Positions 1 through 13,987 of a DNA stretch of 13,987 nt are shown here, in pieces. The DNA comes from Cyanobacteria bacterium NC_groundwater_1444_Ag_S-0.65um_54_12 (GTDB lineage: Bacteria > Cyanobacteriota > Sericytochromatia > S15B-MN24 > VGJW01), in NCBI GenBank assembly GCA_016267585.1, contig JACQUT010000065.1:1-13987 (forward strand). The letters are read 5' to 3'. How positions within the stretch are numbered: the stretch's first letter is position 1; the number at the start of each line of letters is the position of its first letter. The notes beneath the pieces were generated by a model. The model saw only the letters and a program-made list of their open reading frames with translations, was not told the DNA's origin and ran no database searches. The position numbers and the translations under genes were made by a program.

Positions 1-1669
1 CGTCCCGGTTCTTCTCGGGGAGTATGCATTCCTGGAATAGATCGTCACGCTGGTCATAACGCTTGGACAAGATGTCATAGGTTCCAGGTCTCAAATGGCC
101 ATAGTTTTCCAGAAAGCGCTCTTTCGAAAGTTCACCGCTACAGGCTTTTTCTAGGTCGCCAACCATTTCACTAGTGACCGTTCTGAGCGATGCACGGAAT
201 GTGGCTAACCGCTGAATAGAGAGGGCCTGTCGCGCTACCGCAGAACGGAGTAATGCCTCGGCGATGAACGCATGACGAGCTACGATCGCAAAGGGTAATG
301 TTCCTGACCGCTCGCATTCTTCTAGCATCTGCCGGGCTAGTAGTAGTAAACCACTCAAAGTCGAGATATTTCTCGACTTTGAGTGACCAGTATTTAGCCG
401 CTCTAGCTTGGCATTCTCTTGCAATGCGCGCTTGAGACTGCCTTTCTCACTGACGTCTAGACAGCTCCTCGTAAGATGCCCAAGACAGGCCCGATATTCC
501 ACGAATTCTTCGGCGCTCAAGACCTCCGGATAACGCTCCTTGACAATTTCCCCAAAATTAAAATCCAGGGCGGTTGAAGCTACTTCAAATTCGATTTTGT
601 CGTGGAACTCGGGATGAGATCCCAACCGATCGAGCCAGGCATCAATCAGTTTATTGGCAATCCGATCTTCCAGGCCGGAAGGAAGAAACGAATTGAAACT
701 CAGACGAACATCAATGTAGGGCTTACCGGCAATGATGGTCATCAATCCGATCTCTGGTATCTTTCTGTAGCCCAAGACCTCCCGAGCTTCTTTCCAGACC
801 CTGTCTGTTATCAGTCGACGATAAAGGCTGATGGCGAGTGGAGAAGGACACGTACCGATGATCTCCGCAGGATTCCAGTCCGGCATTTCACCAAGAATCG
901 TGCGAGAACCAGCAAGGCCTTTGACTGGCACTGATCTTTCGACGATGCATTGTTTGACGTGATGCAGGGTACTGTCGATACGTTGAGATATTCCACGATT
1001 CCAGTGCTTTTCGACAGTGATACGCCGTGCCTGTAGCAGGTAGACATCTCCGGTTCGGGTTTCTGCAAATTCGATTTCGAGGGGGATCTTTCCGCAAAGT
1101 AATTCAATTTCTTTGATCAGCATCAACCAATTGAGCAGCCTTGAGGACTCGACATAACCGTCAAGAGCTTCTCGATAGATCAATACCGTCTTGTTGGCTC
1201 CAGTACCACCAGTTATGGTGTCAGTCTTGCCAGAGCTATCGTCATAATTGAATACATAGTATGGTGCTCCGTCATTCAGCACATGAGTGGCGATCACACC
1301 ACTGATCGCAACGTCTGCTAGCATCGGCTGGATGAGGATTTGGTCCTTCGGATTACCGGAATAGGAGGCTATGACCGCCTGAATAGCACGTTCTATTGCC
1401 AGGCGATCGCTCCCATCCACAGCCAGACAAGAAACAAAAGCACCGGCCATAGAATTGACGGAAGTGTCTTCCGCCATCGCGCTGCTTCGCACTGCAATTG
1501 GCTGTAGCTGAAAACTAGCTACTATTTGCTCAAGGATTGCGTCCTTGTCGTCGTTCCACGCGCTGACATCGAAATAATAGAGTTCCAGGAACTTGGCCTT
1601 GGAGACCAAGTATTTCAATAAGCTCAGGGTTTCAGCTTTAGTGCCGAATTTAACCCTATTCATTTCCAT
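1..1669 (-). CDS. PEP-synthase/PPDK-like ATP-grasp enzyme (possible glutamine-kinase-like), 3' end outside window
   Basis: This open frame of 556 residues, which I translated from the reverse strand, continues past the left edge. Residues about 60-80 carry the ATP-grasp signature of the PEP synthase / pyruvate phosphate dikinase family (AVRSSAMAEDTSVNSMAGAF). An ILIQPML segment and a GDVYLLQARR end to the nucleotide-binding domain follow. The next domain has MPDWNPAEIIG and, near residue 525, YGHLRPGTYDILSKRYD, both typical of PEP-synthase-like proteins in glycan clusters. The swivelling phosphohistidine domain expected at the C-terminus lies outside the window. The Campylobacter Cj1418 protein of this broad family phosphorylates the amide of L-glutamine for capsule phosphoramidate synthesis; a similar role here is inference. 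It follows asnB by 48 nt. ATG at 1669 or 1663 is possible and neither has a strong Shine-Dalgarno; the frame closes at a TGA at 1699-1697. A perfect 15-bp palindrome lies inside the gene. Confidence 0.85.
   Translation of the reverse strand, partial: MEMNRVKFGTKAETLSLLKYLVSKAKFLELYYFDVSAWNDDKDAILEQIVASFQLQPIAVRSSAMAEDTSVNSMAGAFVSCLAVDGSDRLAIERAIQAVIASYSGNPKDQILIQPMLADVAISGVIATHVLNDGAPYYVFNYDDSSGKTDTITGGTGANKTVLIYREALDGYVESSRLLNWLMLIKEIELLCGKIPLEIEFAETRTGDVYLLQARRITVEKHWNRGISQRIDSTLHHVKQCIVERSVPVKGLAGSRTILGEMPDWNPAEIIGTCPSPLAISLYRRLITDRVWKEAREVLGYRKIPEIGLMTIIAGKPYIDVRLSFNSFLPSGLEDRIANKLIDAWLDRLGSHPEFHDKIEFEVASTALDFNFGEIVKERYPEVLSAEEFVEYRACLGHLTRSCLDVSEKGSLKRALQENAKLERLNTGHSKSRNISTLSGLLLLARQMLEECERSGTLPFAIVARHAFIAEALLRSAVARQALSIQRLATFRASLRTVTSEMVGDLEKACSGELSKERFLENYGHLRPGTYDILSKRYDQRDDLFQECILPEKNRD
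352..385. repeat. Perfect 15-bp inverted repeat with 4-nt spacer, inside a CDS
   Basis: The left arm CACTCAAAGTCGAGA (352-366) is an exact reverse complement of the right arm at 371-385, separated by TATT. The reading frame of the PEP-synthase-like gene runs through it without interruption, encoding HSKSRNISTLS. The transcript would form a stable hairpin in mid-gene. No U-run follows on either strand, so it is not a canonical terminator. Confidence 0.8.
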
Positions 1670-1717
1670 CAGCCTAGCCAATCTACGCAGAACATGTCAA
1701 CGAAAACTAAAAACCCT

Positions 1718-3601
1718 TCAATCGCCAATCAAAAACTTCCGGCACCACCACTCGACGTTGAGCAGGGACCAGATGAGCAGTCTCCGGTTCTGCTTACCTT
1801 CCAGATGTTCGTTGACCAGAGCCTGAATAGCTTCGCGATCGAGAAAGTCATAAATCCTGGTACGTTTGCTAAAAAGCTCCCGACGGACGTAATTGATGCT
1901 TTCACCCTTGAACCAGCTGGCATCCGGTGCGGAGAATCCCTGCTTTTCGCGCTGAGTTACCAGCGGTGGGATATGGCGCTCCATGACTTGGCGCAGGATT
2001 AACTTTCCATCGTTAGTCTTTTCGAAGTACTGCCGGGTCTTGTTTCCGGGATCGTTCTCGTTAAGCCGTATGACTTCGCCAAGATTACCCAGCTTCAGTT
2101 TTACCGGCACCTGCATGGCAAAATCGACCAAATCATTGTCCAGGAAAGGCACCCTGGCTTCCAGGCTATGAGCCATACTTAGTTTGTCTTCCACCACAAG
2201 CAAGCCATGTAAAAAGGTTTTTGTCTCGAAGTAAAGAGAATGGTTTATGTAGTCTTCCGGAGTGGTCAATTCATGAACTGGCTTGACAAACACGTTCCGG
2301 AAAATCTCCCGGGTCCAGACATTGCCTACTTCTTTAAAAATCGGCCGAAAAACTTCTTTGATCGAATTGTTGGGGATCAGGCGCTGCCAGAACTCATAGT
2401 ATTTGTCGATATACTGCTCGAAATTGTTGTTGACCACGGCTCGATAATAACGCCAAGGATAACCGCCAAAAAGCTCCTCACCACCAGCACCCGAAAGGAC
2501 CACCTTGAAGAACTTACTGTCTAGCTGAGCTATGTAGTAATTTGGATAGCACTGACCTACACGTGGTTCCTCTAGATGCCATGTCAATTTGGACATGATC
2601 CGCTCCATGTCGCCTGCCTTGAGAACCATCTCATAATGCTCGGTCTTGAAGAGATAAGACATGTATTCAGCTTTGGCTCGCTCGTCAAATGCGAGTTCCA
2701 GGCCGGATGCGGAGTTGAGATCGAAACCACAGGTAAAAGTACGCAAGTAAGGTAGCTGGGCAGCGACTATAGCCGTAATGGATCCGGAGTCCATGCCACC
2801 GCTCAGGTAAGAGCCCAGTTCGACATCACTCATGAGCTGGCGATTAACCGCCTGGCGAAAAAGGCGATCGAGCTCTTCAATGTACTCACGTTCCGGTAAT
2901 GGCTGATCAGGTTCGGCAAAATGATAATCCCAATAACGAACTGGCGGCGGCAGGTAACGATCGCCCAGCCGCAGGCGCAAGTGGGTTCCGGCTGGCAAGA
3001 TTCTTACCCCTTTGAACAGGGTTCGATCCGTAAAAAAATTCTGAAAGGTGAAGTACTCTAGCAACGCCTCATGGTCCATGGCTACCTGAAAGTCCTGATG
3101 AGCCAGGATTGCCTTGATCTCCGAGCCGAACAAGAAATGAGTGCCACAGCTGGTATAATAAAGTGGCTTGATGCCGTAACGATCTCGAGCCAGGAAGAGT
3201 TCTTGTTGTTGTTTATCCCAGAGGGCGAGCGCAAACATGCCGTTAAAGCGATCGAGAGCCCGCTGTCCCCACTGGGCGAAGGCATATAGCACAACCTCCG
3301 TATCGGTGCGCGAGTGGAACTGGTAACCAAGAGCTTCTAGCTCGAGCCGCAGTTCTTGGTAATTGTAAATCTCTCCGTTGTAACTGAGCGCATAACGTCC
3401 ATCTCTGGTGACCATGGGCTGATGGCCAGCCGGCGATAGATCGATGATGGCCAGCCGCCGATGACCCAGGCCGATGAAACTGTCAATATAAAAGCCTTCG
3501 CCATCTGGTCCGCGATGTGCGATGGCATCAGTCATCCGACGCAGGAGAATTGGCGAGGCCGGCTCGCCATCAAGGTTAAAGAAACCGGTAATTCCGCACA
3601 C
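1718..3601 (-). CDS. asnB: AsnB-type glutamine-dependent amidotransferase (asparagine synthase family)
   Basis: The 627-residue protein has the two asparagine synthase B domains. The N-terminal class II glutamine amidotransferase domain starts with the nucleophile Cys2 (MCGITG), followed by HRGPDG (29-34), the YNGEIYN segment and RTDTE. The C-terminal synthetase domain has the PP-loop SGGMDSGS at 267-274, then SGAGGEELFGGYPWRY and EARVPFLD. The start is a GTG, fixed by the need for Cys at position 2, three nucleotides after the methyltransferase stop. Free asparagine synthesis is possible. In polysaccharide operons, however, this family (for example WbpS in Pseudomonas O-antigen clusters) is thought to amidate uronic-acid carboxylates, and a 6-dehydrogenase upstream would supply such a substrate. 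The substrate is therefore inferred; the family is certain. Confidence 0.93.
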   Translation of the reverse strand: MCGITGFFNLDGEPASPILLRRMTDAIAHRGPDGEGFYIDSFIGLGHRRLAIIDLSPAGHQPMVTRDGRYALSYNGEIYNYQELRLELEALGYQFHSRTDTEVVLYAFAQWGQRALDRFNGMFALALWDKQQQELFLARDRYGIKPLYYTSCGTHFLFGSEIKAILAHQDFQVAMDHEALLEYFTFQNFFTDRTLFKGVRILPAGTHLRLRLGDRYLPPPVRYWDYHFAEPDQPLPEREYIEELDRLFRQAVNRQLMSDVELGSYLSGGMDSGSITAIVAAQLPYLRTFTCGFDLNSASGLELAFDERAKAEYMSYLFKTEHYEMVLKAGDMERIMSKLTWHLEEPRVGQCYPNYYIAQLDSKFFKVVLSGAGGEELFGGYPWRYYRAVVNNNFEQYIDKYYEFWQRLIPNNSIKEVFRPIFKEVGNVWTREIFRNVFVKPVHELTTPEDYINHSLYFETKTFLHGLLVVEDKLSMAHSLEARVPFLDNDLVDFAMQVPVKLKLGNLGEVIRLNENDPGNKTRQYFEKTNDGKLILRQVMERHIPPLVTQREKQGFSAPDASWFKGESINYVRRELFSKRTRIYDFLDREAIQALVNEHLEGKQNRRLLIWSLLNVEWWCRKFLIGD

Positions 3602-3604
3602 CTT

Positions 3605-4558
3605 TCAGATTTTCCTGGCTATGACCGTGAATCCGGATTCTTGCGAATCGAAACGCTCGATTTCCAAACCGGCCTCTTGGCAAAACGAACGTATTTCTTT
3701 CTCGGTATGGCGATGACAGTTCAGGGGACGATACCAATCAAAGTTTACGTGGTTCATCTCCGCCAAATTGTAGTCCGGGCGGTAGTAAGCTTTGCAGATA
3801 TTCCAATAGAAAAAGCGCTGCAGATCAATTTTCCCAGCCTTGATGCCAAGATACGGGATATCATCCGGAACATCTAACTCGATTTGCAGCTTGCCTAGCT
3901 CTGCCCCTAGTTTGGTAAGCGGCATGAGCACCTCCCAGGCCACTTCGTCGGAGAGTTCGGCCAGATATCCTCTAATAGCGTCATCCGTAAATTCCCGGAT
4001 TAACGCCTTCTTGGCGTAGACATAAAACAAGAAACGGCCAGCTCGCTTTAGCTTGGTTGCAAGTTTCAATATGGCATCTCGCGTACTGTCAGTATGATGC
4101 AGTACCCCTTCAGAAAAGATGATGTCGACTGACTCGTCAGGTATGGGTAGATCTAATATATTGGCCTGCAAAAAGTCCCCCTTGATTCCCGCCTCCTGAA
4201 ACCGCAAGGCTGCAACTTCAACGGAGTTGGAAATATCGACCCCGAGATAATCATGATACGTCAGGTAACCCGCAAAAAGCAGCAGAGCGGATAACCCGGC
4301 ACCACAGCCGGCATCTAGTATTAGCTTGCGACCGCCCGCCAGCCAATCATCCAAAAGTCGAGGATCATTGCCGCAATAGCGTTCTAACAACCAGCACCTG
4401 GCTGCTTCCTTGACAGCTTCAGACTCGTAGGTATCACGTTTGCTCCACTTGAAGCCAAAGGCATCAGCTGTTTGATTCTGCTTATTCGAAGAACTCTCAC
4501 GCTTGGTATACACTAAAGTGTCGATACCTAGCCGGTCTAAAGCCGTCACAGCAAACAT
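3605..4558 (-). CDS. Class I SAM-dependent methyltransferase
   Basis: The 317-residue protein has a Rossmann-type methyltransferase core. Motif I is LDAGCGAGL (81-89), the acidic end of strand 2 is GVDIS (106-110), and DIIFSEGVLHHTDS (145-158) is the motif IV/post-IV region. The leading FGFKWSKRDTYES segment (34-46) is typical of methyltransferases found among glycan genes. The C-terminal third, rich in Tyr and Trp, probably recognises the acceptor. ATG at 4558 follows the aminotransferase stop by six nucleotides, and AGGAAAGG just before it, overlapping that stop codon, can serve as ribosome binding site. It ends three nucleotides before asnB, so these genes are surely co-transcribed. It could methylate a sugar O or N, or a phosphoramidate-type group; the sequence does not decide. 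Confidence 0.85.
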   Translation of the reverse strand: MFAVTALDRLGIDTLVYTKRESSSNKQNQTADAFGFKWSKRDTYESEAVKEAARCWLLERYCGNDPRLLDDWLAGGRKLILDAGCGAGLSALLLFAGYLTYHDYLGVDISNSVEVAALRFQEAGIKGDFLQANILDLPIPDESVDIIFSEGVLHHTDSTRDAILKLATKLKRAGRFLFYVYAKKALIREFTDDAIRGYLAELSDEVAWEVLMPLTKLGAELGKLQIELDVPDDIPYLGIKAGKIDLQRFFYWNICKAYYRPDYNLAEMNHVNFDWYRPLNCHRHTEKEIRSFCQEAGLEIERFDSQESGFTVIARKI

Positions 4559-4564
4559 CCTTTC

Positions 4565-5716
4565 CTAAATCGAATTGAGCGTCTGCGCTATGTATTCGAA
4601 ATCGTCAGCAGTCATCCGATTGTGCAGGGGAATGGCCATCGTATGACGATCACAATCTCGAGCGCCGGGAAAATCATCTGGGCGGTAGCCAAATCGTTCC
4701 CGATAGTATCCGAGCAGATGGACAGCATGGGTACCCGGACGTGTACTGATTCCTTTAGCCTGCAGGACCGCCATGATCTCGTTACGCGGCATGGGGGCTT
4801 TGCTTTCATCTACATAGCAGACATACGCTTGCCAAGCATGTTGATAGTCAGTCGGGACTTCTGGCGTACGAAGCCACGTTACCCCTGCCAGTTCCTTGGC
4901 ATAGTAATCCGCCCAGCGTTGCCGCTCTGCCAGGAAGCCATCAAGCTTGGTCAGCTGGACTACCCCTACTGCTCCTTGCAGGTCGGTCATACGATAGTTG
5001 TAACCGAGCAGGTTGAATTCTCCCAGCAGGTAAGGGCGAGGGCCATGGTGCCGTTGTTCTTCCGAGATGCTCGCCCCGTGGTTGCGTAACATGTTGATGG
5101 TATCTGCCAAGCAGTCATCGTCAGTGGTGATCATGCCGCCTTCTCCGGTCGTGATGGACTTGCGGGGGTGAAAAGAGAATGCCCCGGCCAATCCCAGAGT
5201 GCCGGCTGAGCGGCCACGATATAATGCCCCGGCCGCGCAAGCGGCGTCTTCGATGAGCGGAATCCCGGGAGCTGTCTGGGCGATCGCAGTCATGTCGGAG
5301 CATTGACCAAAGAGATGGACCGGCAAGATGGCCTTGGTACGCGGAGAGATCTTGGCGGCCACCTGGTCGGAATCCATGTTGTAGGTCAGGGGGTCCACAT
5401 CAACCAGTACCGGAGTAGCTCCGCAAAACAGCACAACATTCGCTGTAGCTACCCACGTAAAAGCTGGAACGATGACCTCATCACCAGGACCCACGCCCAT
5501 GGCGGACAAGATGAGATGCAAGGCCGTCGTGCAGCTAGTAGTGGCTATTGCATGTTTGGACTGATGCCGTTTTGCGAAGGCATGCTCGAAAGCCGCCACC
5601 TGGGGGCCTTGCGTGAGCCAGCCGGTCATCAAAGGCTCGCGAACCGCTAGCCACTCATCTTCCCCCGTGGCGGGCAAAGAAATGTTGATGTTACGCACTT
5701 GAATATTCGAGTTCAC
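4565..5716 (-). CDS. DegT/DnrJ/EryC1-family PLP sugar aminotransferase
   Basis: This is a fold-type I PLP enzyme that transfers an amino group to a nucleotide-linked keto-sugar. Visible are TSCTTALHLIL and GPGDEVIVPAFTWVATAN near the N-terminus, the IEDAACAAGA cofactor aspartate, FSFHPRKSITTGEGG with the Schiff-base lysine, and LGYNYRMTDLQGAVG. The HPRKSITTGEGG and NYRMTDLQ forms resemble perosamine-synthase/ArnB/PseC-type enzymes more than WbpE, where FPSKPLG is usual. The 3-amino step of the ManNAc3NAcA route can therefore not be assigned to it with confidence. GTG starts at 5731, 5716 and 5698 are in frame. I chose 5716 because GAGG lies nine nucleotides upstream; it overlaps the preceding epimerase gene by 26 nt (41 nt if 5731 is used). 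With start 5716 the product is 383 residues, normal for the family. Confidence 0.9.
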   Translation of the reverse strand: MNSNIQVRNINISLPATGEDEWLAVREPLMTGWLTQGPQVAAFEHAFAKRHQSKHAIATTSCTTALHLILSAMGVGPGDEVIVPAFTWVATANVVLFCGATPVLVDVDPLTYNMDSDQVAAKISPRTKAILPVHLFGQCSDMTAIAQTAPGIPLIEDAACAAGALYRGRSAGTLGLAGAFSFHPRKSITTGEGGMITTDDDCLADTINMLRNHGASISEEQRHHGPRPYLLGEFNLLGYNYRMTDLQGAVGVVQLTKLDGFLAERQRWADYYAKELAGVTWLRTPEVPTDYQHAWQAYVCYVDESKAPMPRNEIMAVLQAKGISTRPGTHAVHLLGYYRERFGYRPDDFPGARDCDRHTMAIPLHNRMTADDFEYIAQTLNSI

Positions 5717-6722
5717 TGATACCAGCCTCACGGCGCCGCAGCGCTACTTCTTCCTTATGCGAGTTTCTCCACTCGATCAGTTTCGTCAATCCCTCATGAA
5801 GTTCTACCTTGGCCTTGAACCCAATTTCTCGGTCTGCCTTCTTCGGGCAACCGATCCGGTTTTTCACGAAAGTGGTGCCTGCCGGCTCGTACCGGATCGC
5901 GAGTTGCGATCCAGTGATCTCTAGTATGAGTTCTGCCAGCTCCTTGATGGTTGTCTTGATGCCTCTACCGACATTATAGAAGGTGTCGGTCGTAGCGGCT
6001 TTCATCGCGCAGACGTTAGCAGCGCCGCAATCGCCAACGTAGACGAAATCATAAGCTTGCGAGCCATCGCCGTAGATGATAGGCGGTAAACCCTTGTCCA
6101 GTTGATCGAGCATCTTCATGATAACCGCGATATAGGCGCCTTGATAGTCTTGCCGCGGACCGTAGACATTCATGTACCGCAAACCGACGTAATCGAAATG
6201 CCGGTCAGTATTCTGGTAGCGCTGGTAAAGCGCATGGCACATGTGCTCGCCAGCGATCTTGGTTGCACCATAAAAATTATGGTTGTTGTGCGGATGATCT
6301 TCCGTCATGGGCTCACTTACGGCATCACCATAGACGGAAGCCGAAGATGAGTAAACCAGCCGTTTGACGCCATTGTTGAGACATGCCTCGATCACGTTGA
6401 AGGTGCCGCCGATGTTGACTTCGAAGGCAGAACGCGGGAAATCTTGACAGTGCAAGAGCCACAATGCTGCCAGATGGAAAACGCCGTCAATTCCCTTCAT
6501 GGCAACATCGAGAAGATCGCGGTGCAGGAGTTCACTGCCTAGCTGGAAAATGTTAACTCGCGGATCCCGCAAGGCGCTGGTCAAGTTCTCTAACTTGCCA
6601 CGCGAAAAGTTGTCGAAAATGCGTATTTCGGCGACATCTTCCTTCAATAGCTCGTCAACCGTGTGAGAGCCTATCAAACCCGCACCGCCAATTACCAATA
6701 ATCGTTTACCTTTTAGAACCAT
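5691..6722 (-). CDS. Extended SDR nucleotide-sugar epimerase/dehydratase (GalE-like)
   Basis: The protein of 343 residues is an extended short-chain dehydrogenase. The NAD-binding GGAGLIGS motif lies near residues 12-19, a DNFSRGK segment follows strand 2, and the active site is formed by SSSASVYG and the YGATK (Tyr-x-x-x-Lys) motif near residues 151-155. LRYMNVYGPRQ and GDGSQAYDFVYVGD are the usual substrate-domain motifs. It may be a C4 epimerase or a 4,6-dehydratase; I cannot tell which. The ATG at 6722 shares its A with the stop codon of the LhgO-like gene and has AGGAG seven nucleotides upstream, which makes it better than the TTG one codon earlier. The 3' end overlaps the aminotransferase gene, suggesting that the two act on the same sugar. 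Confidence 0.88.
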   Translation of the reverse strand: MVLKGKRLLVIGGAGLIGSHTVDELLKEDVAEIRIFDNFSRGKLENLTSALRDPRVNIFQLGSELLHRDLLDVAMKGIDGVFHLAALWLLHCQDFPRSAFEVNIGGTFNVIEACLNNGVKRLVYSSSASVYGDAVSEPMTEDHPHNNHNFYGATKIAGEHMCHALYQRYQNTDRHFDYVGLRYMNVYGPRQDYQGAYIAVIMKMLDQLDKGLPPIIYGDGSQAYDFVYVGDCGAANVCAMKAATTDTFYNVGRGIKTTIKELAELILEITGSQLAIRYEPAGTTFVKNRIGCPKKADREIGFKAKVELHEGLTKLIEWRNSHKEEVALRRREAGISELEYSSA

Positions 6723-7930
6723 CAAGCCACTCCTGTCTCGTTCAATACCAGACGTGCAAAGCTAAATGCGCTAGTAAAAGCCGGGGAAACGGCATTCAAT
6801 ACATGCGTCGAGTTTTTGCCGTGCTCTATGACGAAATCCATGACCAGTTCTTGTTTCTTGAGATCCAGCAGTTGAGCTCGCAGTCCAACTTTTTGACTGC
6901 TGATCAGATGCTTGACCTGTAACTTTGGCACGAGAGCTTTCGCAGCCGCGGCAAAATGCGGCTTGAAGAAGCGCAAGCCTTCCTCTGTGGCAAACTGTCG
7001 AAAGCCTTGGGTATTGCGCGCATATTGCTTACAGAGATTAAAAATGATATGCACTAGTTCGTCTACCTCTACCCCTTGCCAGCCTGCATAGTTCTCGCGA
7101 CCGAACGCCGGCACCGCGGTTGGCCCTAAATAGATATGCCCGTTTATGCTCTTCGTAAAATGCACACCCAAGAAAGGAACTCGCAGATCGGGTACCGGGT
7201 AAATCAGGTGGCGGACTGCAAAGTCTGCTGCTTCCGAGAGACGATAATAAATTCCCTTGAAAGGTAGAATCGTATATTGCCGACCAATCCCAAAGGCTCG
7301 CGCGACTCGATCGGCATGCAAACCAGCAGTATTGAACAGCCTGCCATAATGCCATACCGCACCGTTACTGACGATCGTTGACCGCTCGACCAGAACTTCA
7401 TCAAATGAACAACCATACCTGATTTCCACTCCTTGCTGCTGCAAGGTAGCTGCCAGATGGCCAAGTACGAGCTTGGGATCAATCACCGCGGTGTCAGGCG
7501 AATAAAGTGCTTTGCCGGTGATGGAATGCGCAGCGGGCTCAAGTTCATGGAGTTGCTGAGTATTCAACAGCTCGGCACGCGCTCCGTTGGACTTCGCTCG
7601 CGCTAGCAACAATTCCAGTTGCTTATCATCATCGGCTCGAACTGGGAGAATGACCTTGCCCAGCCGAGCGATGGGTAAGCGATGCTGGGCACAATATTCG
7701 GCCATTTCCTGGGCTCCAGCGGCACAAACCTTGGCCTTGCGAGAATTCTCCGGGTAATAAATGCCCGAGTGCAACACGCCACTGTTACGGCCGCTCGAAT
7801 GTAGACCGATTTCTCGTTCTTTTTCCAGAACTATGACATGGCACTCCGGATGCCGCAGTTTAAGCTCTCTGGCAATGGCCAATCCGACAATACCCGCACC
7901 GACGATAATGAAATCAGCGGTTTGCTTCAT
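6722..7930 (-). CDS. lhgO: LhgO-like FAD-dependent L-2-hydroxyglutarate oxidase/dehydrogenase
   Basis: The 402-residue protein is a DAO-type flavoprotein. It has an N-terminal FAD-binding VGAGIVGLAIARELK (10-24), an acidic strand-2 end LEKE, and the family hallmark SGRNSGVLHSGIYYP (46-60), as in L-2-hydroxyglutarate oxidases. Later segments LPFKGIYYRL and HIYLGPTAVPAFGRE also fit LhgO/L2HGDH. These enzymes oxidise L-2-hydroxyglutarate to 2-oxoglutarate and pass electrons to oxygen or the quinone pool. The open frame extends 58 codons upstream, but homology begins at MKQTADF. That ATG overlaps the stop of the 2-epimerase gene as ATGA, so 7930 is the start. Its place among WbpA/B/D/I-type genes suggests a link to the 2-oxoglutarate-dependent WbpB step; that link is inference. 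Confidence 0.88.
   Translation of the reverse strand: MKQTADFIIVGAGIVGLAIARELKLRHPECHVIVLEKEREIGLHSSGRNSGVLHSGIYYPENSRKAKVCAAGAQEMAEYCAQHRLPIARLGKVILPVRADDDKQLELLLARAKSNGARAELLNTQQLHELEPAAHSITGKALYSPDTAVIDPKLVLGHLAATLQQQGVEIRYGCSFDEVLVERSTIVSNGAVWHYGRLFNTAGLHADRVARAFGIGRQYTILPFKGIYYRLSEAADFAVRHLIYPVPDLRVPFLGVHFTKSINGHIYLGPTAVPAFGRENYAGWQGVEVDELVHIIFNLCKQYARNTQGFRQFATEEGLRFFKPHFAAAAKALVPKLQVKHLISSQKVGLRAQLLDLKKQELVMDFVIEHGKNSTHVLNAVSPAFTSAFSFARLVLNETGVA
6730..6734 (-). promoter_or_regulatory. Ribosome binding site of the SDR epimerase gene
   Basis: AGGAG lies seven nucleotides before ATG 6722, within the last codons of the LhgO-like gene. It decides in favour of this ATG over the TTG at 6725. 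Confidence 0.7.
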
Positions 7931-8994
7931 TTTTTTGACTGAAGACTGGTAATAGCTTCTACAATCCGCTGCGCTGCCTGACCTCCGCCAAAGAGCTGGT
8001 GAAGTTGACGACCATTCTGATTGGCATGCGAAACCGCAGCGACAATCTGGTCGGTCACCACTCCTGACAAACGATTCCAGCCAAGCTCTATGGTCTCTGG
8101 CCATTCAGTTTCTTCCCGCAAGGTTACGCAAGGTGTACCAAGAAACGCCGCCTCTTTTTGCAACCCTCCAGAATCGGTCAGCAGACAGCGTGCTCCTTTG
8201 ACCAGCGCCAGCATATCCAGGTATCCCACCGGAGCGATCCAGCCGGGAGTTTGATAGCTAATTAGACCAGACGCAGTGATCTGCTTGCGGGTCCGAGGAT
8301 GAAGCGGCCAGATAAGCGGCAGCTTCAGCGCGCGAAAAGCTTGCAGGATCGCTTGCAGCCGAAGCGGATCATCGGTATTTTCGGCACGATGCACAGTTGC
8401 CACGTAATAGCTACCGGGCACCAGTCCCCAGCGTTCCCATACAGTGCTCTCGACTATTTGCTGCGAATAAGCTAACAGCACATCGAGCATGACGTCACCT
8501 ACCCAGCAGATCTGTCCATGCACACTCTCGCGCTGCAAATGGTCAACTGCCGTCTGGGTCGGCGCCAGCAGCAGATCGGCTGCCGCATCGGTGAGCACGC
8601 GATTGCACTCTTCTGGCATGCGCCAGTTTCCGCTACGCACGCCTGCTTCCACATGAGCCAGCGGAACTCGTAACTTGGACGCGGCGAGCGTCCCGGCCAG
8701 CGTCGAGTTGGTATCACCATAAACTAGCACCAGATCTGGCCGTTCTATAACGATCACTTCTTCCAGCTTGGTCAGCATGGCGGCAGTCTGGGCTCCATGC
8801 GGACCAGAGCCGACCCCGAGCTGATAGTCAGGTGCCGGAATAGCTAACTCGCAAAAAAAACTAGCGGACAGTTCGGTATCGTAATGCTGCCCCGTATGTA
8901 CCAGCACTTCATTGTGCTGTTGCCTGAGCGCTTGGCTCAAGGGCGCTGCTTTGATGAACTGGGGGCGTGCTCCGACTACGGTGAGGATCTTCAA
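7927..8994 (-). CDS. wecB: Non-hydrolysing UDP-GlcNAc-type 2-epimerase (WbpI/WecB family)
   Basis: The 355-residue GT-B-fold enzyme inverts C2 of a UDP-N-acetyl-hexosamine. Motifs run in the expected order: GARPQFIK (8-15), HTGQHYD (33-39), GDTNSTLAG (93-101), HVEAGVRS (114-121), PEECNR (127-132), HRAEN (201-205), HPRT (231-234), DSGGLQKEA (273-281) and LREETEWPE (291-299). The start is a TTG, since MKILTVVGARPQ is where the family begins and no ATG or GTG fits. It lies six nucleotides after the acetyltransferase stop. With the three preceding genes, it most likely makes UDP-ManNAc3NAcA from UDP-GlcNAc3NAcA, as WbpI/WlbD do. Plain UDP-GlcNAc to UDP-ManNAc epimerisation (WecB) remains possible. 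Confidence 0.92.
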   Translation of the reverse strand: MKILTVVGARPQFIKAAPLSQALRQQHNEVLVHTGQHYDTELSASFFCELAIPAPDYQLGVGSGPHGAQTAAMLTKLEEVIVIERPDLVLVYGDTNSTLAGTLAASKLRVPLAHVEAGVRSGNWRMPEECNRVLTDAAADLLLAPTQTAVDHLQRESVHGQICWVGDVMLDVLLAYSQQIVESTVWERWGLVPGSYYVATVHRAENTDDPLRLQAILQAFRALKLPLIWPLHPRTRKQITASGLISYQTPGWIAPVGYLDMLALVKGARCLLTDSGGLQKEAAFLGTPCVTLREETEWPETIELGWNRLSGVVTDQIVAAVSHANQNGRQLHQLFGGGQAAQRIVEAITSLQSKK

Positions 8995-9000
8995 ACTACG

Positions 9001-9606
9001 CTAATCGCCCCCCATCTTTTCGAGCCCGGTGCTCACCTGCTCATAGCGATCGCCACAAACGTGACAAACCCAGATTCCCGCCCCGGCCTCGGTCAACTTG
9101 ACGCCGCATTCACAAGCCCAACCCTTGACGCGTGCCGGGTTGCCATAGACGATGGCATGTGATGGAATATCGTGCGTCACTACGGCACCGGCACCTACAA
9201 AAGCATATTCACCTATGGTATTCCCACAAACTACCGTGCAATTCGCTCCCAGAGCAGCTCCTTTTTTCACGCAGGTTGGCAGGTAATCCTTTTGCGGGTC
9301 ATTGCGCGGCACATGGGAACGCGGAGTCGCCACGTTGGTGAAAACCATGGAAGGGCCGCAAAAGACGTCATCTTCCAAGACGACGCCAGTATATATTGAA
9401 ACGTTATTCTGAATTTTTACATTATTGCCGATGACCACATCGGAGGAAATAACTACATTTTGGCCGATATTACAACGATCGCCGATGACTGCGCCACGCA
9501 TCACGTGGCTGAAATGCCAGATCTTGGTGCCTTGACCTATGTTGCATGGCTCATCGATATAACTTGACTCGTGGACGAAATATTTTTTCTCCACACTTTT
9601 GATCAT
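9001..9606 (-). CDS. wbpD: Left-handed beta-helix N-acetyltransferase, WbpD/WlbB-like
   Basis: The 201-residue protein is built of hexapeptide repeats (IGDRCNIGQNVVISSDVVIG and following) forming a left-handed beta-helix; such enzymes are trimers that use acetyl-CoA. TKIWHFSHV near residues 27-35 and NNVSIYTGVVLEDDVFCGPS match the WbpD/WlbB group, which acetylates the 3-amino group of UDP-GlcNAc3NA-uronate. The C-terminus ends in a small zinc-ribbon-like tail with Cys 165, 167, 181 and 184 (CEC...CHVC), seen in some members of this group. ATG at 9606 follows directly after the stop of the Gfo/Idh/MocA gene and has a near-perfect Shine-Dalgarno. The function as 3-N-acetyltransferase rests on family and neighbours. 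Confidence 0.9.
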   Translation of the reverse strand: MIKSVEKKYFVHESSYIDEPCNIGQGTKIWHFSHVMRGAVIGDRCNIGQNVVISSDVVIGNNVKIQNNVSIYTGVVLEDDVFCGPSMVFTNVATPRSHVPRNDPQKDYLPTCVKKGAALGANCTVVCGNTIGEYAFVGAGAVVTHDIPSHAIVYGNPARVKGWACECGVKLTEAGAGIWVCHVCGDRYEQVSTGLEKMGGD

Positions 9607-10635
9607 TCAGAAGTCACCTCCTGATGAGCAGTTGCACCGATTCAAAGCACCGGTCGCGGCAGTCTGGAGTGGTCGACGCGCTGCCAATACTTCACTGATG
9701 CGCTCGAGTGCGCGTACGACTCGTACGCCGCTTTGGCCATCAGCCAAGGGTCGATGCCCTGGCTGGCGACAGGCTGACAAGAAGTCCTCCAATTCGGCAC
9801 GCATTGGCTCGCTGGGCGGGTAATTGATGATTTCCTCATCCCCGTTGCGCGGGGTCCAACCCCGCTCGGTTGCTGTAAACCCTTTGTCATAAATGCGAAG
9901 TTTGCCTTCGGTCAGACTATCGTTGAATATTGCCATGCGCCGGCTGCCAATCACCACGAACTGGTGTAACTTACAGGGTTCCAGCCAGCTGACATGTACA
10001 TGAGCCGAGATCCCGGACTCAAACTCCAGATCGACGTACACGGTGTCTTCGCGCGGCGTACCCAGAAGCTGATAACCGCAAGCGTTGACGCGAGTGGGCT
10101 CCTGACCAATCAAGCGCAGAATCAAAGAAAGATCGTGGGGCGCAAAGCTCCAGAGTACGTTTTCTTCCTGGCGCAATTTCCCCAGGTTGAGGCGCGAACA
10201 GCGTATATGACGCAAATCACCTAAATAACCCGCCGATATTCGCTCGCGCAGCGCCAAAAAAGCGGGGTGATACTCCAGGAGATGTCCTACCATGAGCGTA
10301 CTAGAAGACTGAGCCCCGATTGCTACTAGCTCTTCTGCCTGTTCGGTGGTCAATGCCAGTGGCTTTTCCACCAGAACGGTTTTGCGCGCAAGTAGCGCTT
10401 GACGTGCCAAGCGATGATGGGTGTGTACCGGTGTAGCTATGACCACTGCAGTTATGTTCGGATCTGCCAGCACCGCTTCATAGGAAGTCGTAGTGGGCAC
10501 TGGCCAGCGTGCTTGCACTGCTGTCAGCTGTTCGGGATCGCTATCGCATACTGCTCCCAAGCAATTTAGCTCGTGCAAATTCCTGATCCAGTTAGGGCCC
10601 CAATAACCGGCCCCGATTACTGCTACCCGTATCAC
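9607..10635 (-). CDS. wbpB: Gfo/Idh/MocA-family dehydrogenase, WbpB/WlbA-like
   Basis: The 342-residue oxidoreductase has the NAD-binding GAGYWGPN (8-15), the EKPLAL segment (90-95) with the conserved Lys-Pro, and GHLLEYHPA (117-125). It also has NLGKLRQEEN followed by WSFAPHD (162-168), which carries the family's catalytic-region histidine. WbpB/WlbA oxidise C3 of UDP-GlcNAc-uronate and regenerate the tightly bound NADH by reducing 2-oxoglutarate to 2-hydroxyglutarate. The position between a 6-dehydrogenase and a 3-N-acetyltransferase supports this role strongly. The GTG start at 10635 overlaps the upstream stop codon as GTGA and is preceded by GAGAGGA. The last residues (GGDF) are encoded by the Shine-Dalgarno of the next gene, so the C-terminal tail is probably unconstrained. 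Confidence 0.9.
   Translation of the reverse strand: MIRVAVIGAGYWGPNWIRNLHELNCLGAVCDSDPEQLTAVQARWPVPTTTSYEAVLADPNITAVVIATPVHTHHRLARQALLARKTVLVEKPLALTTEQAEELVAIGAQSSSTLMVGHLLEYHPAFLALRERISAGYLGDLRHIRCSRLNLGKLRQEENVLWSFAPHDLSLILRLIGQEPTRVNACGYQLLGTPREDTVYVDLEFESGISAHVHVSWLEPCKLHQFVVIGSRRMAIFNDSLTEGKLRIYDKGFTATERGWTPRNGDEEIINYPPSEPMRAELEDFLSACRQPGHRPLADGQSGVRVVRALERISEVLAARRPLQTAATGALNRCNCSSGGDF
9614..9622 (-). promoter_or_regulatory. Strong Shine-Dalgarno for the WbpD-like gene
   Basis: AGGAGGTGA, a nearly full complement of the 16S rRNA 3' end, sits inside the last codons of the preceding gene, seven nucleotides before ATG 9606. It is the strongest ribosome binding site in the window and suggests that the acetyltransferase is translated at a high rate. 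Confidence 0.8.
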
Positions 10636-11957
10636 AGCTTCAGAATCCTCTCACGATGTGCTTTTACCCCTCGAGTGGCATTTCGAGTGTCTACCACTCG
10701 ACAAGATCTTGCCACTAATTCGTCCCAAGCAACATCGCTATGATCGGTCATAATTACCGTGCAATCAGCCCAACTGGCAGCTGACAGCAAATCGCTGGAA
10801 TGGTGACATTGCTCACGCCAGGTGAACTCTGGTACCAGCTGGTCATGGTAAATCCATACTGCCTGATCGCGTTCCAGGATCTCTAACAGCTTCAGTGCGG
10901 GTGATTCGCGCCAATCGTCAATATCCCGCTTGTACGACACCCCTACTAGCAAGATCTTTGCCCCGCCGATGCTCTTGCGATCTTGCGCCAGCGCTCGCAC
11001 TATCTTCTCGCGCACGAAATATGGCATCAAAGCATTGATCTCGCCTGCCAGCTCGATAAAGCGAGTATGGAAGTCGTATTCGCGAGCTTTCCAGGTGAGG
11101 TAAAAAGGATCGATGGGAATGCAATGGCCGCCCACTCCCGGTCCGGGCCAGAACGTCATCATGCCGAACGGTTTGGTGGAAGCCGATGCTACGACTTCCC
11201 AGACATCTATATCCATGCGATCGCAGAGCAATGCCAGCTCGTTGACCAGTGCAATATTCACGGCCCGAAAAGTATTCTCGAAGACCTTCGTCATTTCTGC
11301 CACGCGCGGGCTCGTTACCCCGATCACTTGCAAGATGGTCTGGCGGTAAAAGGTTTCTGCGACTTCCTGGCAAGCCGGAGTGATGCCTCCCACGATCTTG
11401 TTGGTGTTCTTGGTGGTATAACGGGCATTTCCGGGATCGACACGCTCGGGAGAAAAAGCCAGGAAGAAATCCTGACCCACGGTTAGCCCGCTGGTCGCTA
11501 GCAGCGGCAGCAGGACCTCTTCCGTAGTCCCGGGATAGGTCGTGCTCTCCAGACAGATTAATTGCCCGACCCGCAGGCTGGAAGCTAGCTGTTTTCCCAC
11601 GGTCTCGATATAGGAGATGTCGGGATCGCGATGCGCCGTCAGGGGCGTGGGAACGCAAATTACCACCACGTCGCATTCCGCCAGGCGAGAAAAATCGGTA
11701 GTGGCCGAGAGTCGGCCCTGCTCGCAGGTAGCTTTGAACTGCTGGCTGTCGACATCCTTGATGTAGCTTGTACCCTGGTTGATTTGCTCGACTCTAGCAA
11801 GATTGCGATCGAGACCCAGCACCCGAAAACCTACCTTGGCTTTTTCCACTGCCAACGGCAGCCCCACATACCCGATGCCTGCCACACCTACTTTGGCAGT
11901 ATGATCGGCAATGGCCGAGAGCAACCGAGCTTTGGTAGAGGTGGCGAGTTCTTGCAT
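10632..11957 (-). CDS. wbpA: Nucleotide-sugar 6-dehydrogenase, WbpA/WbpO-type (UDP-GlcNAc or UDP-ManNAc to uronate)
   Basis: The 441-residue enzyme oxidises the C6 hydroxyl of a UDP-sugar twice to a carboxylate using two NAD. It has the Rossmann motif GIGYVGLP (27-34), CVPTP, ENTFRAVNIALVNELA in the dimer helix, and the active-site segment GPGVGGHCIPIDPFY with catalytic Cys near residue 279. It also has GVSYKRDIDDWRESPAL in the C-terminal domain. The STKPFG and HCIPIDPFYLTWKA forms are typical of WbpA/WbpO-like enzymes acting on N-acetylated sugars. The open frame extends to a GTG at 12026, but the family N-terminus and length favour ATG 11957, despite only a distant GGGAG (15 nt upstream). 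It heads the cluster and produces the uronate on which the next gene acts. Confidence 0.92.
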   Translation of the reverse strand: MQELATSTKARLLSAIADHTAKVGVAGIGYVGLPLAVEKAKVGFRVLGLDRNLARVEQINQGTSYIKDVDSQQFKATCEQGRLSATTDFSRLAECDVVVICVPTPLTAHRDPDISYIETVGKQLASSLRVGQLICLESTTYPGTTEEVLLPLLATSGLTVGQDFFLAFSPERVDPGNARYTTKNTNKIVGGITPACQEVAETFYRQTILQVIGVTSPRVAEMTKVFENTFRAVNIALVNELALLCDRMDIDVWEVVASASTKPFGMMTFWPGPGVGGHCIPIDPFYLTWKAREYDFHTRFIELAGEINALMPYFVREKIVRALAQDRKSIGGAKILLVGVSYKRDIDDWRESPALKLLEILERDQAVWIYHDQLVPEFTWREQCHHSSDLLSAASWADCTVIMTDHSDVAWDELVARSCRVVDTRNATRGVKAHRERILKL

Positions 11958-12043
11958 GGTGTAACTATCATACTCCCAATGGCATGCAACATCACAATAT
12001 TGTGCCAGTTTTTCACCCCACGTCACAACTACGCTGCAGGAGC

Positions 12044-12079
12044 TTATTACCGGAGCCTGCGCACAGACTCCGGTAATAA
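12044..12079. repeat. 12-bp inverted repeat with 12-nt spacer between two minus-strand genes
   Basis: TTATTACCGGAG (12044-12055) is exactly repeated as its reverse complement at 12068-12079. It lies between the stop of the membrane-protein gene and the start of the 6-dehydrogenase gene. Read on the minus strand it makes a stem without a following U-run, so it is not a typical intrinsic terminator. It may be a Rho-linked hairpin, an mRNA-end stabiliser or an operator for the polysaccharide operon. Confidence 0.65.
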
Positions 12080-12120
12080 TGTGGTGGTGGATGGGGGATA
12101 GGAGGGGGTTTCGGAGAAAA
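12080..12120 (-). terminator. C-rich, G-poor tract, possible Rho utilisation site
   Basis: On the minus-strand transcript, just after the membrane-protein stop codon, about 40 nt are roughly half C and contain a single G. That is the composition expected of a Rho-utilisation region. It runs straight into the 12-bp inverted repeat. This would separate the upstream gene from the polysaccharide operon. It is a composition argument only. Confidence 0.3.
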
Positions 12121-12130
12121 CTGGCAGTGC

Positions 12131-12898
12131 CTACTTTGTTCTAGTAGCAGTGGATGTCTGCTTCGTCAGCACTGCTTCGATTTTTAAACTTTCTACTTCC
12201 ACCTGTTTAGCAGCAGGCGTTGTCGTCACTGGCGGGACCGGCGTGACAACCGGCGAAGGGTTATCACCAGTGCTGGCGAGATCGATGACGCTGGCAATCG
12301 CCTTGGTATCATGCCGTTTGAGCGAAATATCAGCGGCGCCTCTTAACCCGCCTGCCAAACCAGCTGCGGCCGTGCAAATCCCGGTCACTAGCGCAATGAG
12401 TTTCAGTGTTGGCTTGCCTAGTATCTTCAAAGTTTCGCCCAGTTCTGCGGGCGAAACGCGCTTCATGATGAGTGCGCTGCCACCAATACCAATCACCAAG
12501 GCTCCCGCTACACCCATTTGTGAAATAGCCTGCTTGGCAGCTTCGATTACTGCTCCGCCGGCTGTGCTGACGCCATTTTTGGCACCATCGAGAAACCCTT
12601 CCCGGACAATAACGGGTTCATCATCATGAGCAGCCAGAATAAAAGACTTGCCATTCAACAGCACTTTTGGAACGGCTTGTCGCTTTTGAAAGTCAAAATC
12701 GAGACGATCGCCATACACTACCAGACGTTCCCGATGATCGCGTGATTCTAGAAAGTATTCCTTGTAGCCATCGTTAGTGGTTGCTTGCACTGCAGCTGCC
12801 GTGGTGAGGTCGCGCCGGATGTGGCCGATACCCTGGTAAGCCACCGGCCGGCCGTTGACCAGTACTACATCGGAACCATCACCGCGCATTATCCCCAT
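12131..12898 (-). CDS. Unrecognised protein with two predicted membrane segments and a Pro/Thr-rich C-terminus
   Basis: I do not recognise this 255-residue protein. It has an N-terminal charged domain of about 105 residues that looks like a beta-rich soluble module. A Gly/Ala-rich stretch follows, with a first hydrophobic segment at about 129-145 (GVAGALVIGIGGSALIM) and a second at about 164-186 (LKLIALVTGICTAAAGLAGG). A tail from about 212 is rich in Pro, Thr and Val. No signal peptide is evident. The ATG at 12898 is preceded by GGAGGAG only two nucleotides away; ATG 12889 has better spacing and may be the true start. It is 173 nt upstream of the sugar cluster and separated from it by an inverted repeat, so it may be its own transcription unit. 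It is divergent from the sigma factor gene. Confidence 0.75.
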   Translation of the reverse strand: MGIMRGDGSDVVLVNGRPVAYQGIGHIRRDLTTAAAVQATTNDGYKEYFLESRDHRERLVVYGDRLDFDFQKRQAVPKVLLNGKSFILAAHDDEPVIVREGFLDGAKNGVSTAGGAVIEAAKQAISQMGVAGALVIGIGGSALIMKRVSPAELGETLKILGKPTLKLIALVTGICTAAAGLAGGLRGAADISLKRHDTKAIASVIDLASTGDNPSPVVTPVPPVTTTPAAKQVEVESLKIEAVLTKQTSTATRTK

Positions 12899-12900
12899 CG

Positions 12901-12907
12901 CTCCTCC
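12901..12907 (-). promoter_or_regulatory. Ribosome binding site of the membrane-protein gene
   Basis: GGAGGAG lies two nucleotides before ATG 12898 and eleven before ATG 12889. The close spacing to the first ATG makes the second a serious alternative. Confidence 0.55.
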
Positions 12908-13000
12908 GCTCGGAATTGTTGATCGTATCGATTTAACGTTGAATTAACGACACTGATATATAGCGATTTTTGCGGATCAACTTGCCAGAATAAGGTTAAA

Positions 13001-13022
13001 TTTACTGCATGGATGCAGTAAA
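13001..13022. promoter_or_regulatory. Operator-like palindrome (10-bp arms, 2-bp centre)
   Basis: TTTACTGCAT (13001-13010) and ATGCAGTAAA (13013-13022) are exact reverse complements around GG. The site lies about 105 bp upstream of the membrane-protein gene and about 50 bp upstream of the -35 box of the sigma promoter, a fitting place for a repressor or activator dimer. It recalls the TACTG...CAGTA ends of an E. coli LexA box, but the spacing is 8 and not 10, so I do not assign it to LexA. Confidence 0.5.
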
Positions 13023-13069
13023 AATTGCGAGATCAAAGCGGCATTCTTCTCCGGTACGCACTGTGGGGC

Positions 13070-13098
13070 TTGGCGTACTGTTAATCGCATGCTAGACT
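13070..13098 (+). promoter_or_regulatory. Sigma70-like promoter for the sigma factor gene
   Basis: TTGGCG (13070-13075) and TAGACT (13093-13098) are separated by exactly 17 bp; each matches four of six consensus positions. The predicted start is near 13105, which puts the whole hairpin region in the 5' leader. Confidence 0.45.
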
Positions 13099-13111
13099 GC
13101 TAGGAGTGGGT

Positions 13112-13186
13112 AAGGCAATTGTGCCAGTTCAAGCACAATGGGGAGTGAAAAGCCGGAACCCTACAGGTAACAATTGCCGGGTAGCC
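13112..13186 (+). ncRNA. Structured 5' leader candidate with mutually exclusive hairpins
   Basis: ATTGTGC (13118-13124) pairs perfectly with GCACAAT (13133-13139) around an 8-nt loop. The overlapping GGCAATTGT (13114-13122) pairs perfectly with ACAATTGCC (13170-13178) farther downstream. The two pairings cannot form together, as in a regulatory switch. Between them lies GGGGAGTGAAAAGCCGG. The segment starts just after the predicted transcription start and ends about 60 nt before the sigma ATG. It shares a few short strings with GEMM-I (c-di-GMP-I) riboswitches (GGCAA, AAAGCC, TTGCCGGGT) but lacks the GNRA loop, so I do not assign it to a known class. Confidence 0.35.
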
Positions 13187-13246
13187 AAATTAGCTCACGA
13201 GCCATGGTAGTGACGTGGGAAGAAGAGTTCAGTGGAGAGAGAGGGC

Positions 13247-13987
13247 ATGGAGAAGGCCTTCAAAAGCGCGCCTACGCATGAGAAGGAACGGCTAGTTGGT
13301 GATTTCCTCCCTTTAGTAAAAAAAATTGCACGAGGTCTGGCGCGGCGCAGTACGGATCCGGTAGAGGATTTGATACAGGTCGGTTCGATAGGTTTACTTG
13401 AAGCCATCGAACGCTATGAAATTGGCCATAATACTGAATTCAAGACTTATGCGGTTCATTTCATAACCGGCCACATTCGCCATTATCTGCGGGATCGGCA
13501 AAACTTGTTGCGAGGCCCCCGCGTTCTTCAGGAGCTTTCTTATCGCCTTTCGCAAGTTACCTCCAGGCTGACGCAGGAGTTTGGGCGAGAACCTTCTAAC
13601 GCGGAGTTAGCGAAGGCACTTGACGTAACGCTGGAACAGGTGGACGAGGTCAAACTTTACGATCGCCGAGTCACGGTATTGTGGCTCGATCAGGATGGCT
13701 TAGAGGGCGAGGATGATGAGCAGCGTTCTTTGCTGGACAGCCTTTCCGATCCCCGTTTTTCTGGCGAAGCCAAGGATGAGCTAGATGAGCGCTTGGTACT
13801 TACCGAAGCTATGAATCGGTTGCCACCAGCGCAACGTGAACTGCTGGAGCTGCGCTACTTTCAAGATCTCACGCAAGCAGAACTTTCTCGCCGCTTAGGC
13901 ATCTCGCAGATGGAGGTTTGTCGCAGATTGAAAAAAGCGGAAAAACAGCTCCGCACTGTCTTGGCGCCAGCAAGTCGGTTGGGGAAC
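13247..13987 (+). CDS. SigB/SigF-type (group 3) RNA polymerase sigma factor, 3' end outside window
   Basis: The frame is open for 247 residues up to the right edge. Region 2 spans about 15-85, with DLIQVGSIGLLEAIERYE (41-58, core binding) and EFKTYAVHFITGHIRHYLRD (64-83, -10 recognition). Region 3 spans about 93-137 (REPSNAELAKALDVTLEQV). Region 4 spans about 183-236, with LPPAQRELLELRYFQDLTQ and the helix-turn-helix AELSRRLGISQMEVCRRLKK. There is no region 1.1 and the N-terminus is short, as in SigB/SigF/SigG and cyanobacterial group 3 factors. Since region 4 is nearly complete, little is missing. ATG 13247 has GGAG nine nucleotides upstream; GTG 13232 is also in frame. It is divergent from the membrane-protein gene. 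No anti-sigma gene is visible. Confidence 0.92.
   Translation, partial: MEKAFKSAPTHEKERLVGDFLPLVKKIARGLARRSTDPVEDLIQVGSIGLLEAIERYEIGHNTEFKTYAVHFITGHIRHYLRDRQNLLRGPRVLQELSYRLSQVTSRLTQEFGREPSNAELAKALDVTLEQVDEVKLYDRRVTVLWLDQDGLEGEDDEQRSLLDSLSDPRFSGEAKDELDERLVLTEAMNRLPPAQRELLELRYFQDLTQAELSRRLGISQMEVCRRLKKAEKQLRTVLAPASRLGN

Follow-up and report, generated by a model that had tools for sequence, protein, structure and literature searches.

L-2-Hydroxyglutarate (L-2-HG) is usually treated as a harmful by-product. In Campylobacter jejuni, the GDP-heptose C4 dehydrogenase Cj1427 (structures 6vo6/6vo8) is isolated with NADH tightly bound, and 2-oxoglutarate oxidises that NADH and is itself converted to L-2-HG (PMC10680097). 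In Pseudomonas aeruginosa PAO1 it is WbpB that reduces 2-oxoglutarate, giving the D isomer (D-2-HG), and this by-product of O-antigen sugar synthesis is returned to 2-oxoglutarate by a second dehydrogenase, D2HGDH (PMC8651671). The oxidation of L-2-HG belongs to the L2HGDH/LhgO family, represented by the Drosophila enzyme (8w75) and by Escherichia coli LhgO (b2660), whose gene stands between glaH and gabD in a catabolic setting. Here we describe a gene of this family, LHGO, that lies instead in a sugar operon, on a 13,987-nucleotide stretch (hereafter the window) of Cyanobacteria bacterium NC_groundwater_1444_Ag_S-0.65um_54_12 (contig JACQUT010000065.1, positions 1 to 13,987; assembly GCA_016267585.1, 64.6% complete). 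Our preferred reading, held tentatively and with a little less than even confidence, is that LHGO serves a redox relay started by the short-chain dehydrogenase/reductase (SDR) encoded immediately downstream, EPIM. The window also differs from the P. aeruginosa coupling, in which the D isomer comes from WbpB, in having an L-type enzyme inside the operon; the P. aeruginosa D-2-HG dehydrogenase gene presumably lies apart from the wbp genes, judging by gene numbers.

The oxidase and its active site

That the gene encodes an LhgO-like flavoenzyme had already been proposed in a sequence-only reading of the window, and this proposal held up well: LHGO scored 343.2 bits against NF008726, the NCBIfam model for L-2-hydroxyglutarate oxidase (cut-off 299), and 191.6 bits against Drosophila L2HGDH. 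Its longest open reading frame (ORF), 6722-8104, would specify 460 residues, but the first 58 of these are absent in close relatives (mostly 395-425 residues), and for that reason the true start is most likely at 7930, giving a protein of 402 residues. In the Drosophila enzyme the C1 carboxylate is held by Ser88, Tyr289 and His302 and the C5 carboxylate by Arg393 and the main chain of Leu299, with His92 as the proposed base; the solved L2HGDH is inactive on D-2-HG (PMC10726252). Alignment set S50, H54, Y244, L254, H257 and R351 of LHGO opposite S88, H92, Y289, L299, H302 and R393, so that all six are kept; they were invariant across a 20-row alignment, and among 104 rows the only departures were a gap at two of the positions in one row and His for Arg in four. 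Because the family cut-off was passed and the 2-oxoglutarate-site residues are kept, L-2-HG is the expected substrate, and we infer that the window flavoprotein is a true L-2-HG oxidase/dehydrogenase. The four relatives in which His replaces the C5-carboxylate Arg (L065, L067, L084 and L103) come from one betaproteobacterial clade and possibly act on a different substrate; in L067 the gene upstream of LHGO is enoyl-CoA-hydratase-like.

Neighbours of the oxidase in other genomes

An LHGO alignment was scanned over named genomes, and the best 80 of at least 578 confirmed places were examined, a sample that favours relatives of the window; genes in these loci were taken as the longest non-overlapping open frames and assigned to families by best phmmer score against queries from the window or the loci. 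A co-directional SDR neighbour of LHGO was present in 28 of the 80 loci, as compared with 7.0 expected when a non-SDR gene drawn at random from these loci takes its place, and 5000 permutations, which treat neighbours and background alike as to strand, reached no more than 15. By Pfam model, PF01370 was found upstream in 13 of 58 neighbours and downstream in 18 of 56, versus 4 of 60 genes lying five to six genes away (Fisher p 0.001, both sides pooled); these neighbours were co-directional only, 2 of 60 upstream and 1 of 57 downstream having been dropped for length, and the background was 60 of 222 genes taken in shuffled order from either strand, with one long gene skipped. LHGO and SDR genes are clustered above chance in the 80 loci. 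The loci are kin and hence not independent events, and the better argument is that the LHGO tree (102 rows) shows the pairing in three of its regions.

The first region is that of the window. An EPIM relative scoring above 370 bits was found in 15 of the 80 loci, directly 3' of LHGO in 13 of them, and all 18 EPIM-cluster rows of the tree fell in one 38-row clade (support 94). The gene 5' of LHGO in the 15 loci was WbpE-like in four, WlbA in three, WecB-like in two, an acetyltransferase in two, a divergent WbpB in one and unclassified in three. In the second region, the SDR is of the Cj1427 kind and stands directly 5' of LHGO, in 12 of the 80 loci (532-721 bits when compared with the L056 SDR, itself a close Cj1427 relative with 380.9 bits and E 4e-113 to 6vo6), and 11 of the 12 linked rows fell in a 23-row clade (support 95); GmhA-like and HddC-like genes lay alongside in seven of the 12, HddC being the best model for the L056 gene, yet below its cut-off. 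The third comprises cyanobacterial loci (L004-L013), in six of which, out of ten, a cytidylyltransferase-like gene is followed by LHGO and then by an SDR; the first gene of L004 passed the glucose-1-phosphate cytidylyltransferase model with 457.7 bits, and for the L004 SDR, the one tested from this group, Cj1427 was the nearest solved structure, though a distant one at 102.1 bits. The cyanobacterial rows and E. coli LhgO shared a 13-row group (support 100), the window LHGO standing in a different large branch; the tree was a quick one with support from the Shimodaira–Hasegawa-like approximate likelihood ratio test (SH-aLRT) only, and its E. coli row was flagged as a long branch.

Such adjacency, which exceeds the permutation control and recurs across three tree regions, is unexpected for a general repair gene, and tells against the idea that LHGO carries out housekeeping repair of L-2-HG from dehydrogenase side reactions, with no dedicated partner in the operon. 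We regard that idea as unlikely, while granting it some weight: 52 of the 80 LHGO loci have no SDR neighbour, and the window's genome, at its stated completeness, gave one LHGO match only. The loci also bear on whether LHGO was recruited as a biosynthetic step, oxidising a sugar or some other hydroxy acid. In many of them LHGO lies inside a sugar-nucleotide cluster, and there are single long proteins in which LHGO-like domains are fused with a sugar transferase or glycosyltransferase (P0244, P0246) or with a WbpE-like aminotransferase (P0242, of 772 residues, which is not used as evidence because it is a single sequence whose junction is perhaps a frameshift). Such recruitment is nevertheless very improbable, since the residues that grip both carboxylates of 2-oxoglutarate are kept and clusters of much the same genes occur without LHGO, so that the sugar can be made in its absence.

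Other arrangements were seen around the oxidase. In five Prochlorococcus loci (L081, L088, L091, L092, L101) a nucleotidyltransferase-like gene follows LHGO, accompanied in the last four by a GmhA-like gene, and this arrangement is another sugar-nucleotide setting of LHGO. Two clusters have another flavoprotein-like gene, by eye resembling glycerol-3-phosphate dehydrogenase, which follows the acetyltransferase gene in L032 (7795-8922) and the WlbA gene in L038 (7887-8954). Literature titles and abstract openings, in a search outside which most subscription papers lay, showed no link of LhgO to polysaccharide or nucleotide-sugar settings.

The operon

The window holds a closely packed operon of Wbp/Wlb type, with ten ORFs on one strand reading from 12026 to 2, and the product is probably an unusual surface sugar:

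10632..12026, minus strand: UDPDH, nucleotide-sugar 6-dehydrogenase, WbpA-like (TIGR03026, 416.7 bits, cut-off 189.8)
9607..10635, minus strand: GFO, Gfo/Idh/MocA dehydrogenase ('type A'), with a likely WbpB-like role but of a third sequence type (PF01408/PF22725; best PDB matches 3c1a/7bvj)
9001..9606, minus strand: ACT, hexapeptide N-acetyltransferase, WbpD-like (PF00132; NeuD subfamily best, under its cut-off)
7927..8994, minus strand: WECB, non-hydrolysing UDP-sugar 2-epimerase, WbpI/WecB-like (TIGR00236, 295.8 bits, cut-off 210.15)
6722..7930, minus strand: LHGO, predicted L-2-hydroxyglutarate oxidase/dehydrogenase (NF008726 above cut-off; active-site residues)
5691..6722, minus strand: EPIM, extended SDR, proposed to act as a nucleotide-sugar C4 dehydrogenase and to give rise to L-2-HG (PF01370; 6dnt, 162.4 bits; motifs; adjacency)
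4565..5731, minus strand: DEGT2, pyridoxal-phosphate aminotransferase, nearest perosamine synthetase (3bn1, 269.8 bits) and ArnB (8sng, 267.6 bits; 1mdo, 257.1 bits), less near WbpE (3nu7, 169.0 bits)
3605..4558, minus strand: MT, S-adenosylmethionine-dependent methyltransferase (PF08241)
1718..3601, minus strand: ASN, glutamine-dependent amidotransferase, perhaps uronamide-forming (TIGR01536, 450.1 bits, cut-off 267.1)
2..1681, minus strand: phosphoenolpyruvate-synthase/PPDK_N-like protein, continuing past the window edge (NF004508, 608.9 bits, cut-off 501)

The translational coupling that had been claimed for these genes is evident in their same-strand ORFs with zero gaps or overlaps of a few bases: UDPDH and GFO overlap by 4 bases, the gap between GFO and ACT is 0, WECB and LHGO overlap by 4 bases (the LHGO ATG being at 7930), and LHGO and the SDR gene share TGATG at 6722. 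The oxidase gene had been placed two genes downstream of the WbpB-like gene; it is the third gene after it, with two genes between. Compared with the Wbp/Wlb pathway to UDP-ManNAc3NAcA, the window has the same kinds of 6-dehydrogenase, 3-dehydrogenase, N-acetyltransferase and 2-epimerase, but its 3-dehydrogenase is of a third sequence type, its sole aminotransferase is nearer to perosamine synthetase and ArnB than to WbpE, and it adds the SDR, the methyltransferase, the amidotransferase and LHGO. At the right edge, a plus-strand ORF (13232-13987) resembles a SigB/SigF-type sigma factor of RNA polymerase, its translation being judged by eye.

The SDR, and clusters with and without the oxidase

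EPIM carries the motifs GGAGLIG, SSSASVYG and YxxxK (as YGATK); the extended-SDR NAD motif and Tyr-x3-Lys are superfamily-wide, and their presence is for that reason a weak sign of chemistry of the Cj1427 type. Like Cj1427, EPIM is an extended SDR of a sugar-nucleotide pathway, and relatives of Cj1427 stand directly before LHGO in the 12 loci described above. The difference is one of subfamily, GalE-like proteins being among the top PDB matches of EPIM and 6dnt the best match, so that its use of 2-oxoglutarate would be by analogy.

A number of observations weigh against EPIM as the source of L-2-HG. Cj1427 (6vo6) was outside the best 60 of the 164 PDB matches of EPIM, which is not a member of the Cj1427 family, and if this GalE-like protein were a redox-neutral epimerase it would yield no L-2-HG at all. 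No EPIM residue passed the thresholds for separating clusters with LHGO from clusters without it, and a joined LHGO-SDR query gave no fusion among 10 matches. Besides the 52 LHGO loci without an SDR neighbour, 32 of the 80 gave no SDR anywhere with the queries used, and two of the SDRs that do stand next to LHGO are dehydratase-like and hence would be redox-neutral (in L078, above the cut-off of TIGR01181, dTDP-glucose 4,6-dehydratase; in L079, GMD-like and below cut-off). Seen from the side of the SDR, an adjacent LHGO was present in six of 17 EPIM loci and absent in 11 (four of 15 without the window and G386, both known beforehand to have LHGO; L121, with 274 bits, was left out, and some of the genomes are shared with the 80-locus scan). 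It was present in three of 12 Cj1427-type loci and absent in nine (two of 11 without the centre genome). LHGO was wanting at E 1e-30 in three of the 15 genomes with an EPIM cluster, the other 12 having an LHGO-like match at that level or better, adjacent or elsewhere (2 weak). The 4-aminotransferase was absent in 5 of 18 clusters with LHGO versus 3 of 11 without, rates so similar that LHGO cannot be said to follow this enzyme. To these is added an association that a partnership with the SDR leaves unexplained: on the EPIM tree, about 3.4 of 5 independent pairs have LHGO together with the Bordetella pertussis type of WlbA (type B, treated below), and no pair shows the reverse (median p 0.25).

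Since most similar SDR clusters are without an adjacent LHGO, the oxidase is at best accessory in them, although in the family of G388 it was adjacent in six of six. The starred branches of the EPIM tree, the labels of which were entered by hand, force at least six changes in the presence of LHGO. This coming and going among similar clusters is in keeping with the housekeeping-repair explanation, and a gene that is optional and repeatedly changing is more what would be expected of a helper clearing away a by-product than of a biosynthetic step.

The 3-dehydrogenases as candidate partners

In the sequence-only reading the source of 2-hydroxyglutarate was GFO, described as a dehydrogenase of the WbpB/WlbA family. 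GFO is indeed a Gfo/Idh/MocA dehydrogenase, but of neither solved WbpB/WlbA sequence type. Among solved structures it is closest to 3c1a and 7bvj, the latter of which we take to be GnnA; a single-sequence PDB search with GFO had none of 3q2i/3q2k and 3oa2/3o9z (WlbA/WbpB) in the best 60 of 80 matches, and in a profile search only 3q2k from this set was among the best 60 of 104, at 76.5 bits as against 148.9 for 7bvj. GFO showed kinship neither to 3oa2/3o9z, the P. aeruginosa/Thermus-type 2-oxoglutarate-dependent WbpB, nor to 3q2k/3q2i, the B. pertussis/Chromobacterium violaceum-type WlbA, whereas the one representative of each kind that was verified, from L046 and L034, scored 398 bits to 3oa2 and 560.8 bits to 3q2k, respectively. 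GFO relatives do, however, lie between the 6-dehydrogenase and the acetyltransferase in clusters L126, L128 and L133, as in the window, and 10 of the 120 GFO homologues listed bear an added hexapeptide acetyltransferase-like domain; for these reasons GFO probably has a WbpB-like role in a wider sense, as a 3-dehydrogenase of UDP-GlcNAc(A), and its type would seem to add a third kind to the UDP-sugar 3-dehydrogenases.

The proposal that this enzyme regenerates its NAD+ with 2-oxoglutarate, and that LHGO recycles the resulting 2-hydroxyglutarate, gains from the shared operon, from the activity of P. aeruginosa WbpB, and from the presence of a P. aeruginosa-type WbpB in two LHGO loci (L046, and L066, where it is on the other strand). 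The proposal had been said to depend on the stereochemistry of the WbpB product, and for the canonical enzymes the isomers do not match, P. aeruginosa WbpB giving D-2-HG, which the solved L2HGDH refuses (PMC8651671, PMC10726252). Nor do the gene neighbourhoods favour it. Within the locus stretch examined, the 15 EPIM loci contained an amidotransferase in 15, a 3-dehydrogenase in 14, an acetyltransferase in 14, a WbpE-like aminotransferase in 10 and a 6-dehydrogenase in nine. The type of the 3-dehydrogenase varies (B. pertussis WlbA in 12 of the 14, P. aeruginosa type in two), and it adjoins LHGO directly in three of the 14 where the SDR does so in 12. Among the 17 EPIM loci, an adjacent LHGO accompanied type A, GFO's own, in one of six (the window itself), the P. 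aeruginosa type in none of two, type B in five of six, and no recognised 3-dehydrogenase in none of three. With the characterised enzyme giving the wrong isomer, GFO belonging to another subfamily and the type of 3-dehydrogenase being variable, we rejected a WbpB-like enzyme as the partner of LHGO; as the source of 2-hydroxyglutarate it is probably wrong, and we think this version quite unlikely. The general idea of an operon that recycles its own 2-hydroxyglutarate remains well motivated.

The type-B counts raise a further alternative, namely that LHGO serves the B. pertussis-type WlbA, its usual companion, and that the window kept LHGO after an exchange of its 3-dehydrogenase. The five of six type-B clusters with adjacent LHGO compare with one of eight having another 3-dehydrogenase (Fisher p 0.026, which ignores kinship), but the independent pairs on the tree are five only, and WlbA directly adjoins LHGO in three of the 12 loci that have it. 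The link between LHGO and type B could be one of shared descent. Reportedly, in a 2011 paper, WlbA of the B. pertussis/C. violaceum kind has no need of 2-oxoglutarate. Its mechanism is described as sequential and contrasted with the 2-oxoglutarate ping-pong of WbpB (PMC10622841), and of all the explanations considered we give this one the least credence. The SDR is favoured as partner because the type of 3-dehydrogenase changes among relatives while the SDR stays directly downstream.

A proposed relay and its meaning

Perosamine synthetase and ArnB families aminate 4-keto sugars. The window aminotransferase is nearest to these 4-amino-sugar enzymes, and a 4-keto sugar would hence be needed; a GalE-like SDR that supplied one for amination would perform a net oxidation, and its hydride would have to be shed. 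In the relay that we propose, EPIM would oxidise a UDP-uronic acid intermediate, probably at C4, with the NADH staying bound; 2-oxoglutarate would re-oxidise this NADH and leave as L-2-HG, as in Cj1427; and LHGO would return L-2-HG to 2-oxoglutarate, passing the electrons to quinone or oxygen. The 4-keto sugar would pass to the perosamine-synthetase/ArnB-like aminotransferase, with glutamate going in and 2-oxoglutarate coming out, and the pathway would end in a 4-amino uronic acid, perhaps in uronamide form (the five LHGO clusters without this aminotransferase being noted above). It is thus the Cj1427 precedent that would supply the route from 2-oxoglutarate to L-2-HG and LHGO that would close the loop; we infer the C4 position, the use of 2-oxoglutarate by the SDR, the electron acceptor and all of the chemistry in this organism.

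An SDR in place of WbpB as the partner fits the stereochemistry known for Cj1427. The wider form of the proposal, that SDRs of several subfamilies discharge their retained NADH onto 2-oxoglutarate and that an LhgO from the neighbouring gene then oxidises the L-2-HG, we put forward as a conjecture somewhat further short of an even chance. If true, net-oxidising sugar SDRs would repeatedly have LhgO as an accessory, with at least three recruitments in different parts of the LhgO family, and an LhgO gene next to a supposed 'epimerase' would be a hint that this SDR is a real dehydrogenase and not redox-neutral. The proposal would also help to explain how sugar dehydrogenases with tightly bound NADH turn over in the cell, and a recurrent LhgO-SDR pair would make L-2-HG a dedicated electron carrier in the making of rare surface sugars.

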